Source of the DNA: Variovorax sp. TBS-050B
GTDB taxonomy: Bacteria; Pseudomonadota; Gammaproteobacteria; Burkholderiales; Burkholderiaceae_C
Assembly (NCBI RefSeq): GCF_029893635.1
Contig: NZ_JARXYR010000002.1
Span: forward strand, 1,897,001 to 1,961,000
Length of the DNA: 64,000 bases
Direction: 5' to 3'
The position numbers and the translations under genes were made by a program. A model generated the notes under the pieces. The model searched no databases and was not told the origin of the DNA. It worked only from the letters and a program-made list of their open reading frames with translations. Positions within the stretch are counted from its first letter, which is position 1; each line of letters opens with the position of its first letter. Below are positions 22,863 through 25,907 of this stretch, in pieces.

Positions 22863-23180
22863 TCAGATCTTGAAGGCGCGCTGGATGTCGGCCCGCACGA
22901 GGTCGGCGTACTCGCGGTGCTTGCGGATGTAGCCCGCGATGAACTGGCACACCGGGATCACGTGCAGCCCGCGCGCGCGGGCGTCGTCGAGCACATGCCG
23001 CGCGAGGCCCGAGCCCACGCCCTTGCCCTCGAAGGCGGACAGCACCTCGGTGTGCGTGAACATGATCGCGTCGGTCAGCAGGTTGTATTCGGCGTAGCCC
23101 GCGAGCTGGCCGTCGAGCATGGCTTCGTAGCGGTGCTGGGCGGCGTTGTCGGCGATGGCGAGGGGGGTCTTGTCGGTCAT
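22863..23180 (-). CDS. Small GNAT-type N-acetyltransferase (COG2388-like)
   Basis: 105 residues, the size of the minimal GNAT branch that uses acetyl-CoA on an unknown small acceptor. FEGKGVGSGLARHVLDDARARGLHVIPVCQFIAGYIRKH contains the acetyl-CoA pyrophosphate loop (G-K-G-V-G-S) and the late cysteine and tyrosine typical of this group. Its ATG overlaps the upstream SnoaL-like gene stop by four bases, so the pair form an operon. Confidence 0.85.
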   Translation of the reverse strand: MTDKTPLAIADNAAQHRYEAMLDGQLAGYAEYNLLTDAIMFTHTEVLSAFEGKGVGSGLARHVLDDARARGLHVIPVCQFIAGYIRKHREYADLVRADIQRAFKI

Positions 23181-23671
23181 GGTTCGCGTGCGAGGTAGGT
23201 GGCGAGATTGGCGGCCGCGGTGGCGCGGACCTTGTTGCGCAGCATCGGCGTCCAGCCGAGGAACAGCCCGGGCGCGCCGAGCGCCTGGCGCGACCAGCGC
23301 CAGAAATCGAAGCTGTCGCGGTGGGTGGCGATCAGCCCCTCGGGCGTGAAGCCGAAGCGCGCGTCGATGCTGTTGTCGACCAGCCGGCCGGTGCTGCTGA
23401 ATCGGTAGTGTGCGTCCCAGTGGGCCCGGCCGCTCGTCTCGTCGGCCTGCACGTCGCGCCAGCGCAGCTGCCAGACGTCGGCGCCCTTGGCGCGCGTCGC
23501 GTCGCAGAGCATGCGCCACATGCCGCCCACGTGGCGGCGGCCGCGCAGCGAGAAGGCCTCGTCGTCGAAGGCCGCGTCGTCCGCGTAGCAGGCGGCCATG
23601 GTGCGGGCGTCGAGCCGCGAGAAGGCGTCGTAGAAGCGCTCGATGGTCCGGGCGTTGGCTTCTGCTGTCAT
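23177..23671 (-). CDS. SnoaL/NTF2-like fold protein
   Basis: 164 residues with the NTF2-like pattern: an opening helix NARTIERFYDAFSRLDARTMAACYADDAAFDDEAF, then alternating strands ending WRWSRQALG. Proteins of this type may be hydrolases, isomerases or plain binding domains; no catalytic residues can be assigned here. The start at 23671 is an ATG, preceded in the message by AAGGG. It is divergent from the LuxR-type gene. Confidence 0.8.
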   Translation of the reverse strand: MTAEANARTIERFYDAFSRLDARTMAACYADDAAFDDEAFSLRGRRHVGGMWRMLCDATRAKGADVWQLRWRDVQADETSGRAHWDAHYRFSSTGRLVDNSIDARFGFTPEGLIATHRDSFDFWRWSRQALGAPGLFLGWTPMLRNKVRATAAANLATYLAREP

Positions 23672-23813: not shown

Positions 23814-24573
23814 ATGGCGGAAGCGCTCAACGACTGGCAGTTCATCGAGGCGGTTCTGGCGGCGCGCACGCTCGCCGAGGTGGAGCGCATCAGCCGCAGC
23901 GCCATGGCGGCCATGGGCTTCAACCACTGCGCCTACGTGCTGAAACGGCCTGCGCCGGTGCCGGAACCGGCGGGCGGCGATCCGCTCTTCTTCTTCCCAC
24001 GACCTGCCCGAGGACTGGGCCAGGACGCGTTACGCGTCGCTGCGCAGCAGCGCCGGCGAAGCGGCCGATGCGCGCGTGCAGCACGTGCGCGCCGGCATGC
24101 CCGCCACCGCGTGGAGCTGGCTCGGGGAGGTCAGCCACACGCGCATGGACATCGGCCAGCGCGCGAAGGGGCTGCTGCGCAGTGCCGGCGAGCACGGCCT
24201 CAAGGCCGGCCTGACGGTTCCGCTCTGGACGCCGGGCATCCACTGGGCCTTCATGACCCTCACCACCGACGCGACCGCGGATCTGCGCGAACTGCGCTCC
24301 ACGCTCGGGCCGATGAACTACTTCGCTTCCTGCCTGCATTCGACCGTGCGCCGCCTGCAGGGCGATCGCCACGTGCCGCGCCTGAGCGCGCGGCAGCGCG
24401 AGGTGCTGCACTGGGTGGCCAGCGGCAAGTCGACCTGGGACATCTCCGAGATCCTGAACATCAGCGAGCGCACGGTCTACTTCCATCTCGACGGCGCCGC
24501 CCGCAAGCTCGACACGCAGGGGCGCATGGCCACCTGCGCACGCGCGCTGGCGCTCGGCCTTCTGCATCCCTGA
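23814..24573 (+). pseudogene. LuxR-family autoinducer-binding regulator, interrupted by a frameshift
   Basis: Two reading frames together make one LuxR-type protein of about 252 residues. The N-terminal part (frame of 23814, MAEALNDWQFIEAVLAARTLAEVERISRSAMAAMGFNHCAYVL) runs to about 23994. The rest continues in the next frame from about 23995 (SHDLPEDWARTRYASL, AWSWLGEV, GLTVPLW) to a GerE helix-turn-helix (LSARQREVLHWVASGKSTWDISEILNISERTVYFHL) and the TGA at 24571-24573. The switch lies in CTTCTTCTTCCC and corresponds to one surplus base. It follows GGAGG. This could be a sequencing error, a dead gene, or slippage in the repeated CTT run. The binding and DNA-binding domains are otherwise intact. 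Confidence 0.8.
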
Positions 24574-24585
24574 GCGGACCGGAGG

Positions 24586-24609
24586 ACCCCTGTCGCAACC
24601 GACAGGGGT
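24586..24609. promoter_or_regulatory. 24-bp perfect palindrome, lux-box-like
   Basis: ACCCCTGTCG, four bases CAAC, then CGACAGGGGT: ten-base arms without mismatch. It contains CT-N12-AG, the spacing of LuxR-type boxes. It starts 13 bases after the LuxR-like stop and its centre lies about 110 bases before the ATG at 24708. No run of T follows, so it is not a terminator. Confidence 0.7.
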
Positions 24610-24707
24610 GGCGCGCCGGCCGCGCGCGCCGCTGCTTCAATCGCCGCGAAGCGCATGCGAGGCCCCGCGACGGGCGCCCCGCGGCAGCGCATTCGAGGAA
24701 TGGAGCC

Positions 24708-25907
24708 ATGAGCGAACGCCGGAATTTCGTGCGTCTTCTGGGAGGTGGCATCGTGGTCGCGGCGGGAGCCACGGCGTTCGCGACCTGGTGGCTGAACGAC
24801 GAGGTGCCTGCCGCCGCGCTGGAGGCGTGGCAGGGCCCCCGCGGCGAGCGCGACCCGCGCCGCCGTGCGATCGCCTATGCGGTGACGGCACCGACCGCCT
24901 ACAACGCCCAGCCCTGGGTGGTAGACCTGCGCGAACCCGATGCGATCGTGCTCTTCTGCGACCGCGGACGGCTGCATCTCGAGAGCGATCCGTTCGGCCG
25001 CCAGGCGCTGATCGGCCACGGCGCGTTCATCGAGCTGCTGGTGATGGCACTGGCGCAGCACGGCCTGCGCGCCGTGGTGCAGCTCTGGCCGCAGGGCGAG
25101 CCCGGCCGCGATCCGCGCCACTGGCACGACCTGCCCGTGGCACGGCTGCGGCTTTCGGACGGCGGCGCGCCCGATCCGCTGTTCGCGCACGTGCTGCGCC
25201 GGCGCACCCCGCGGCAGCGCTTCGACACCGGCCGCGCGGTCTCGTCCGAGGTCCTGCAGGGGCTCGACGCCGCGGTTCCCGCGCACGGGGTGGTGCAGTC
25301 CGGCGGCACGGTCGATCCCGCGCGCGTGCGGCCGCTGCGCCGGCTGTGCATGGCGGCGGCGCGGCTGGAAATCAGCACCCCGGGCACCGGGCTCGAGAAC
25401 CTGCGGCAGCAGCGCATCGGGCCGCGGGAGATCCTCGCGCACCGCGACGGCCTGGCGGTGAACGAGCCGGCGCTGCGCCTGGCGGCGGCGCTCGGGCAGC
25501 TCGACCGCAGCACGCCGGCGCCCGAAGACAGCGGCTGGTTCAGGCAGATGCTGGGGATGCACGAGGAACAGGCCGCAACGGCGATGGGTTTCGTCTGGCT
25601 CAGCACGCGCGGCAACAGCCGCACCGAGCAGATCGAGGCCGGGCGCGCCTTCGTGCGGCAGCAGCTGCACGCCACCGGCCTGGGGCTCGGCATGCAGCCG
25701 ATGAGCCAGCCGCTGGAGGAATTTGCCGAGATGGCGCCGCACCGTGCGGCGGCGCACGACATGCTGCTCGGCGGCCCGCTGCCGGCATGCGATGCGCGCC
25801 GCGCCGGCGCGGGTGCCACGCTGCAGATGATCTGCCGCGTCGGCTATCCGATGGCGCCCGTGCCGCCCGCGCCGCGGCGGCCGCTGCAGTCCTTCGTGCG
25901 GGCCTGA
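24708..25907 (+). CDS. Tat-exported nitroreductase-like (Acg family) protein
   Basis: 399 residues. The start ERRNFVRLLGGGIVVAAGATAFATWW is a twin-arginine signal or anchor, so the protein probably sits folded in the periplasm. The body contains AIAYAVTAPTAYNAQPWVVDL and RRRTPRQRFDTGRAVSSEVLQ, the two blocks seen in FMN-dependent Acg/nitroreductase-like proteins, and a late LGLGMQPMSQPLEEF. Flavin binding is inferred, not shown. The lux-box-like palindrome upstream suggests control by the adjacent LuxR protein. ATG 24708 follows GGAG. The frame is open far upstream only by chance, through the LuxR gene. Confidence 0.75.
   Translation: MSERRNFVRLLGGGIVVAAGATAFATWWLNDEVPAAALEAWQGPRGERDPRRRAIAYAVTAPTAYNAQPWVVDLREPDAIVLFCDRGRLHLESDPFGRQALIGHGAFIELLVMALAQHGLRAVVQLWPQGEPGRDPRHWHDLPVARLRLSDGGAPDPLFAHVLRRRTPRQRFDTGRAVSSEVLQGLDAAVPAHGVVQSGGTVDPARVRPLRRLCMAAARLEISTPGTGLENLRQQRIGPREILAHRDGLAVNEPALRLAAALGQLDRSTPAPEDSGWFRQMLGMHEEQAATAMGFVWLSTRGNSRTEQIEAGRAFVRQQLHATGLGLGMQPMSQPLEEFAEMAPHRAAAHDMLLGGPLPACDARRAGAGATLQMICRVGYPMAPVPPAPRRPLQSFVRA

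Follow-up and report, generated by a model that had tools for sequence, protein, structure and literature searches.

A lux-box-like palindrome between a LuxR solo gene and an Acg-type flavoprotein gene as a candidate operator in Variovorax

The window, which is the whole stretch of 64,000 nucleotides of Variovorax sp. TBS-050B DNA that was analysed, contains a compact locus in which a LuxR-type regulator gene, a perfect palindrome and a gene for a predicted flavoprotein follow one another. The features of the locus are as follows.

23177..23671, minus strand: SnoaL-like gene (Pfam SnoaL_2), the divergent upstream neighbour, which marks the conserved slot by synteny
23814..24573, plus strand: luxR-type gene, frameshifted in the assembly; the N-terminal piece is in the frame of 23814 and the C-terminal piece in the frame ending at 24573, and the pieces were translated apart
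24586..24609, no strand: perfect palindrome with 10-bp arms and a 4-bp centre, read directly; the proposed operator
24588..24607, no strand: lux-box-like 20-mer core CCCTGTCG-N4-CGACAGGG with CT-N12-AG, from the comparison of three genomes
24633..24641, plus strand: extended -10-like element TGC-TTCAAT, with 4/6 matches to TATAAT, 25 bp after the 20-mer
24708..25907, plus strand: gene for an Acg-family FMN oxidoreductase-like protein of 399 aa (NCBIfam NF047509), the proposed target gene
24708..24797, plus strand: twin-arginine leader-like N-terminus, ERRNFVRLLGGG followed by a hydrophobic stretch, read in the translation by eye

The palindrome reads ACCCCTGTCG-CAAC-CGACAGGGGT, exactly at 24586-24609, and direct reading confirms the ten-base arms, the four-base centre and the CT-N12-AG that the original prediction had described. 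The CT-N12-AG lies in the inner 20-mer at 24588-24607, CCCTGTCGCAACCGACAGGG, and the lux core within the palindrome is CCTGT-N8-ACAGG. The luxR stop codon occupies 24571-24573, and 98 nt separate the palindrome from the ATG of the flavoprotein gene (24708). When the window genome (5.54 Mb in two contigs) was searched with the arms at up to three mismatches, this was the only site returned. A dispersed repeat is ruled out by the single copy.

The shape of the palindrome by itself says little, as perfect hairpins are common in this DNA. Those with arms of at least 9 bp and loops of 3-8 nt amount to seven entries in the window, two of which are the palindrome itself, compared with about 12 expected under a first-order Markov model of the window. 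Over 464 kb, 290 gene-like ORFs were called heuristically, and 19 of them are followed, no more than 30 nt past the stop codon, by the start of a perfect hairpin whose arms measure 8 bp or more; for arms of 10 bp the number is 10/290, the luxR palindrome included. Palindromic shape alone is not beyond chance in G+C-rich DNA, and it is the combination of features that stands out. In a simulation, the expected number of perfect CT..AG 20-mers with 8-bp arms is 0.14 per 64 kb, and that of CCTGT-N8-ACAGG sites is about 0.8 per genome. The latter pattern has one place in the window genome (G000) and two in each of G006 and G027, the two relatives with the same luxR; in every case one of the places is the luxR locus. 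In G006 and G027 the second place has a sequence unlike that of the luxR locus, and the reversed control pattern occurs just as often (none in G000, one each in G006 and G027), so we take these second places as chance matches.

The gene preceding the palindrome had been read as a LuxR-family gene with an autoinducer-binding domain, and this is borne out by matches above cut-off to GerE (PF00196) and Autoind_bind (PF03472). The gene is intact in G006 and G027, with scores of 43.6-45 bits for PF03472 and 59-61 bits for PF00196. The C-terminal piece of the window gene gives 26.3 and 61.1 bits respectively, both also above cut-off. Past the frameshift, the window gene is 88-90% identical to its relatives, with identities of 92% at the first, 93% at the second and 70% at the third codon position; the gene is broken, yet its later part shows purifying selection. 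Such constraint is that of a functional protein and the palindrome has remained intact, so the break would be recent or an assembly error. The frameshift could alternatively mean that the system of the window strain is a relic, with a broken luxR and a defunct box, which would be compatible with a working operator in G006 and G027. In view of the identity past the frameshift, the codon-position pattern and the unblemished palindrome, a relic is considered rather doubtful.

No luxI had been seen in the window, and this absence extends to the whole genome as far as the LuxI model PF00765 shows, with matches in 0/3 of the luxR genomes. The same model matched 0/14 control genomes, and in the family it gives matches above cut-off in 22/200 genomes. 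The regulator has the PF03472 and PF00196 domains in a genome with no PF00765 LuxI, which is the make-up of a LuxR solo. The sole Autoind_bind gene in each of G006 and G027 is the LuxR beside the palindrome, and G000 has two such genes. The second LuxR of G000 (L076, at G000:C2:3915190) is flanked by an AraC-family gene on one side and an aldo/keto reductase gene on the other.

An AlphaFold2 model of the LuxR protein was obtained with a mean pLDDT of 86.8 and a pTM of 0.77. QscR and RhlR were the top Foldseek matches, the best being QscR at 25% identity, with TM-scores near 0.5 and high rmsd; we read these values as the domains being set differently in the model. The protein was also compared residue by residue with 20 family LuxRs, comprising 14 from the 16 loci that matched best outside the own genome (all except L056 and L068), four second loci, L109 and L111. 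Position 66 is L, where 18/20 family members have Y, position 88 is A in place of a P found in 20/20, and position 196 is Q in place of an E found in 20/20. W70 is as in 19/20 of the family, and D87, W102, G130, G134, L200 and G206 are shared with all 20. Extra residues relative to the family are present at 73, 77-79, 108 and 112-117, among others. The changed sites 66, 88 and 196 presumably correspond to TraR 57, 71 and 178, a mapping based on the RhlR alignment. With this mapping, the protein has L at 57, W at 61, A at 71 and Q at 178, and so departs from the signature of AHL-type receptors, while the equivalents of D70, W85, G113, L182 and G188 are retained. The nine signature residues of AHL receptors are given in the relevant part of PMC4338825 as W57, Y61, D70, P71, W85, G113, E178, L182 and G188. 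In PMC8546723, loss of the W57 hydrogen bond is taken to indicate that solos of pseudomonads have other ligands. As three signature or pocket residues depart from those of 18-20 of the 20 family relatives, an unusual ligand for this LuxR is plausible.

Solos situated beside the gene that they regulate are already known, such as QscR with the phenazine genes and XccR/OryR with pip, and LuxR solos bind lux boxes, according to sections of PMC4338825. The arrangement of the PAB solos XccR/OryR/PsoR and pip is similar in having a solo beside its likely target, changed pocket residues and a lux-box-type operator (parts of PMC4338825 and PMC10134790). The PAB solos, as described there, carry W57M and Y61W, whereas the LuxR discussed here has L, W, A and Q at 57, 61, 71 and 178; their target is a proline iminopeptidase, whereas the neighbours here are a SnoaL-like gene and an Acg-type flavoprotein gene. 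Membership of the PAB/pip group is ruled out by the L at site 57 and the lack of a pip neighbour. QscR and the phenazine operon share with the present locus a solo regulating an adjacent locus, as proposed here, and QscR is also the best Foldseek match; in the account drawn from PMC4338825, however, QscR answers the endogenous AHLs of its host, whereas no PF00765 synthase was found here. The CepR2 group (araC - cepR2 - geneX), which includes Variovorax, likewise consists of Burkholderiales solos, some with E178Q. The present LuxR differs from that group, as portrayed in the same portion of PMC4338825, in having no araC neighbour and in keeping the W85 and G113 equivalents. The second LuxR of the window genome, L076, fits the CepR2 context better (PMC4338825, in part).

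In a set of 101 genomes of the genus, an orthologue of luxR is found in three (G000, G006 and G027; E <= 7e-98), and weaker LuxR-like matches occur in all 101, the best of these at 2.7e-13. The original prediction was to be rejected if the palindrome proved not to be conserved where relatives share the pair of genes; luxR, the palindrome and the Acg-type gene occur together in 3/3 of the luxR genomes. The gene order is also the same in all three, with the SnoaL-like gene, luxR, the palindrome, the flavoprotein gene and, 3' of the latter, a gene that we take to be CinA-like. The three genomes agree at 16/16 arm positions of the 20-mer; between the arms the window has CAAC, and G006 and G027 have GAAA. 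Invariant columns account for 21/24 of the palindrome and for 47/93 of the remaining spacer, counted ungapped (Fisher p = 0.001). Four-fold sites are 68-70% identical in luxR among the three genomes and 64% in the flavoprotein gene, for which the window and luxR-less Variovorax give a similar 61-63%. The flavoprotein proteins of G006 and G027 are 95% identical, and the three luxR genomes therefore count as two deep lineages instead of three independent cases. Among 20 named flavoprotein loci, the palindrome arm is present only at L013, which is the G006 locus and belongs to V. boronicumulans NBRC 103145.

A conserved hairpin behind a stop codon could also function as RNA, either as a Rho-assisted end of the luxR transcript or as a stabiliser of its mRNA, with the likeness to a lux box being accidental. 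The start of the palindrome 12 nt past the luxR stop in the window, and 8 nt past it in G006 and G027, is in line with such a role, as are a strong predicted fold (-17.9 to -19.7 kcal/mol for the 24-mers, with z of -3.6 for a longer segment), the GAAA loop in two genomes and the frequency of post-stop hairpins in the survey above. However, none of the three sites has a T tract on either strand, whereas 8/19 of the surveyed hairpins have at least four T in the next eight bases. There is also no compensatory change in any pair; the sole arm change, in G006, lies outside the 20-mer and breaks the outermost pair. Furthermore, the lux core is present in none of the 18 other post-stop hairpins, yet occurs in the one beside a LuxR gene. 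A purely RNA-level function is thus regarded as unlikely. An intrinsic terminator is ruled out, as there is neither a T tract nor a terminator call at the palindrome for either strand of the three loci. An Rfam scan gave one match, inside the next gene, with 15.4 bits where the gathering score is 50, and a known structured RNA is ruled out.

Outside the genus set, a close orthologue of the LuxR was not found in 399 family genomes, for which six candidates per genome were scored, in 399 order genomes or among the plasmid matches listed, although these draws contain few genus genomes beyond the 101. Of the family genomes, 17 match at E <= 1e-15; one of these is the own genome, and the rest are 30-39% identical. 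Besides the own genome, the order set gave two at E <= 1e-22, both at 35% identity. The ten plasmid matches listed were 28-32% identical, and 5/360 plasmid records, outside that list, have a best place of 60-80% identity.

The predicted target had been described as a Tat-exported, Acg/nitroreductase-like protein. Its assignment to the Acg family holds, with 203 bits for NF047509 against a cut-off of 199, and PDB 2ymv (Acg) matches residues 53-148 at E 2.9e-7; the Pfam nitroreductase models are below cut-off. The twin-arginine motif is also present. The N-terminus begins MSERRNFVRLLGGG, with the stretch RRNFVRLLGGG seen by eye, where relatives have DERRNFVRLLGGG, and the protein is probably exported. 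Mycobacterial Acg is controlled by DosR. The protein resembles the Acg/Rv3131 FMN oxidoreductases in passing NF047509 and in the 2ymv match; it differs from them in its twin-arginine leader-like start and in having LysR or LuxR regulators as neighbours. The nearest named relatives of the gene are from Variovorax.

The flavoprotein gene is present in 26 of the 101 genus genomes (E <= 1e-60). A full-length, divergent, adjoining LysR gene accompanies it at 17 of these loci, the identity of the LysR domain having been checked by Pfam on one member; one locus has a LysR remnant, five have no match to this LysR and three have luxR. A 60-aa piece beside the flavoprotein gene in L097 and L008 corresponds to the C-terminal end of LysR, and is likely a relic of recent LysR loss. 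In Acidovorax (L015, L016, L017 and L019) a related LysR (63-64%) is found about 1.2 kb upstream, not adjoining. From its presence at 17/26 genus loci and at the four Acidovorax loci, LysR is probably the older partner of the flavoprotein gene. This distribution suggests that LuxR replaced LysR in the luxR lineages. Trees of 21 flavoprotein rows and 17 SnoaL-like rows need two changes for the gain of luxR, with a single gain in 28% and 36% of bootstrap trees, and do not settle whether the LuxR loci go back to one shared gain or to more.

The loci also differ in their promoters. In 17/17 close LuxR-less orthologues, defined by at least 68% identity (L084-L098, L101 and L102), a sigma-70-like promoter lies directly before the ATG, compared with 0/3 of the LuxR loci. 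It has the form TTGTKA (TTGTTA or TTGTGA)-N17-GATAAT, with a spacer of 16 in one of the 17. GATAAT stops 7 nt short of the ATG at 16 of the loci, one of which (G100) was measured by eye, and 6 nt short of it at the remaining one, which suggests a leaderless mRNA for a predicted exported protein. The promoter is kept in the five of these 17 orthologues in which LysR is missing or reduced to a remnant; its loss therefore goes with LuxR and not with the loss of LysR. The remaining six genus loci (below 60% identity) have neither the LuxR-type nor the sigma-70-like arrangement. In the three LuxR-locus spacers, sigma-70 consensus scans that required a -35 box found no promoter. The sequence TGC-T(T/G)CAAT is nevertheless situated exactly 25 bp from the 20-mer in 3/3 of them, across a gap without indels, with indels on either side. 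For a start 7 nt after the -10-like hexamer, the centre of the box is computed at about -50.5. This is farther from the -10 than in classical lux boxes and is not their spacing.

Taken together, the palindrome is likely to be the lux box, or operator, of the adjacent LuxR solo and to serve the promoter of the flavoprotein gene. It contains a 20-bp palindrome with the CT-N12-AG of lux boxes at a putative promoter position, and the single lux-core site of the window genome adjoins one of its two Autoind_bind genes. In the 142-220 nt upstream of luxR, no CT-N12-AG 20-mer had more than 4/10 pairs among the best four of each genome, and the intergenic box is thus the only candidate found at the locus. 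Evidence against the operator comes from site 178, where the E of the DNA-binding-domain signature is Q here, from the abundance of post-stop hairpins, from the count of two deep lineages only, and from the negative promoter scans and non-classical spacing described above. A scan of family LuxR/LuxI loci revealed no equally strict 20-mer except at L072, L056 and L110, so these loci do not provide a rich positive control for the box search. L072, a Comamonadaceae LuxR gene outside the group, has a lux-box-like CCCTGTCAGATCTGCCAGGT at 1225-1244, 34 nt before the start of the gene.

From these comparisons we infer binding, activation over repression, the promoter element, the ligand and export. 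A LuxR dimer would bind the box, probably together with a small molecule that is not made via a PF00765 LuxI enzyme. The bound LuxR would then recruit RNA polymerase to a weak promoter, which lacks a -35 box and has only the extended -10-like element 25 bp away, and the oxidoreductase would be made when the signal is present. Activation is favoured because the LuxR loci have lost the promoter seen in their relatives, and a lux box with a weak element is the usual build of an activator-dependent promoter; the non-classical position of the box leaves room for repression. The box may instead be a repressor site for the adjacent LuxR, or an operator for another protein, either the second Autoind_bind LuxR of the window genome or an unrelated dimeric regulator. 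The presence of that second gene and the long distance from the box to the -10-like element would agree with this. However, the adjacent LuxR is the single Autoind_bind match in G006 and in G027, and among the loci examined the box occurs only where the adjacent luxR is present, which makes this explanation improbable.

The original overall reading is supported in part, namely for a LuxR solo with a conserved box and an Acg-family protein with a twin-arginine motif, with an unusual signal plausible and control of an exported flavoprotein putative; a solo beside its target is not in itself a new arrangement. Among the papers searched, none combined LuxR, nitroreductase and lux box, and the titles and beginnings of abstracts consulted showed no such pairing. 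Solos that control their neighbours being known, the comparison of loci adds the apparent replacement of LysR by LuxR and the change of promoter, which a single window could not reveal. It is possible, and is put forward tentatively, that a LuxR solo with a rebuilt pocket, responding to a non-AHL or foreign signal, displaced the ancestral LysR of a periplasmic Acg-type flavoprotein, by which a leaderless, constitutive-looking promoter became signal-dependent, and that it represents a new subgroup of LuxR solos.

With its single regulator, single box and single target, the locus is a compact unit open to testing, in a soil genus that is easy to grow. A simple reporter could serve to screen for the ligand of the solo. 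Sister species with LysR or with neither regulator offer natural controls for the replacement of a regulator. If the reading is true, the Acg-type flavoprotein would be tied to outside signals in these bacteria.
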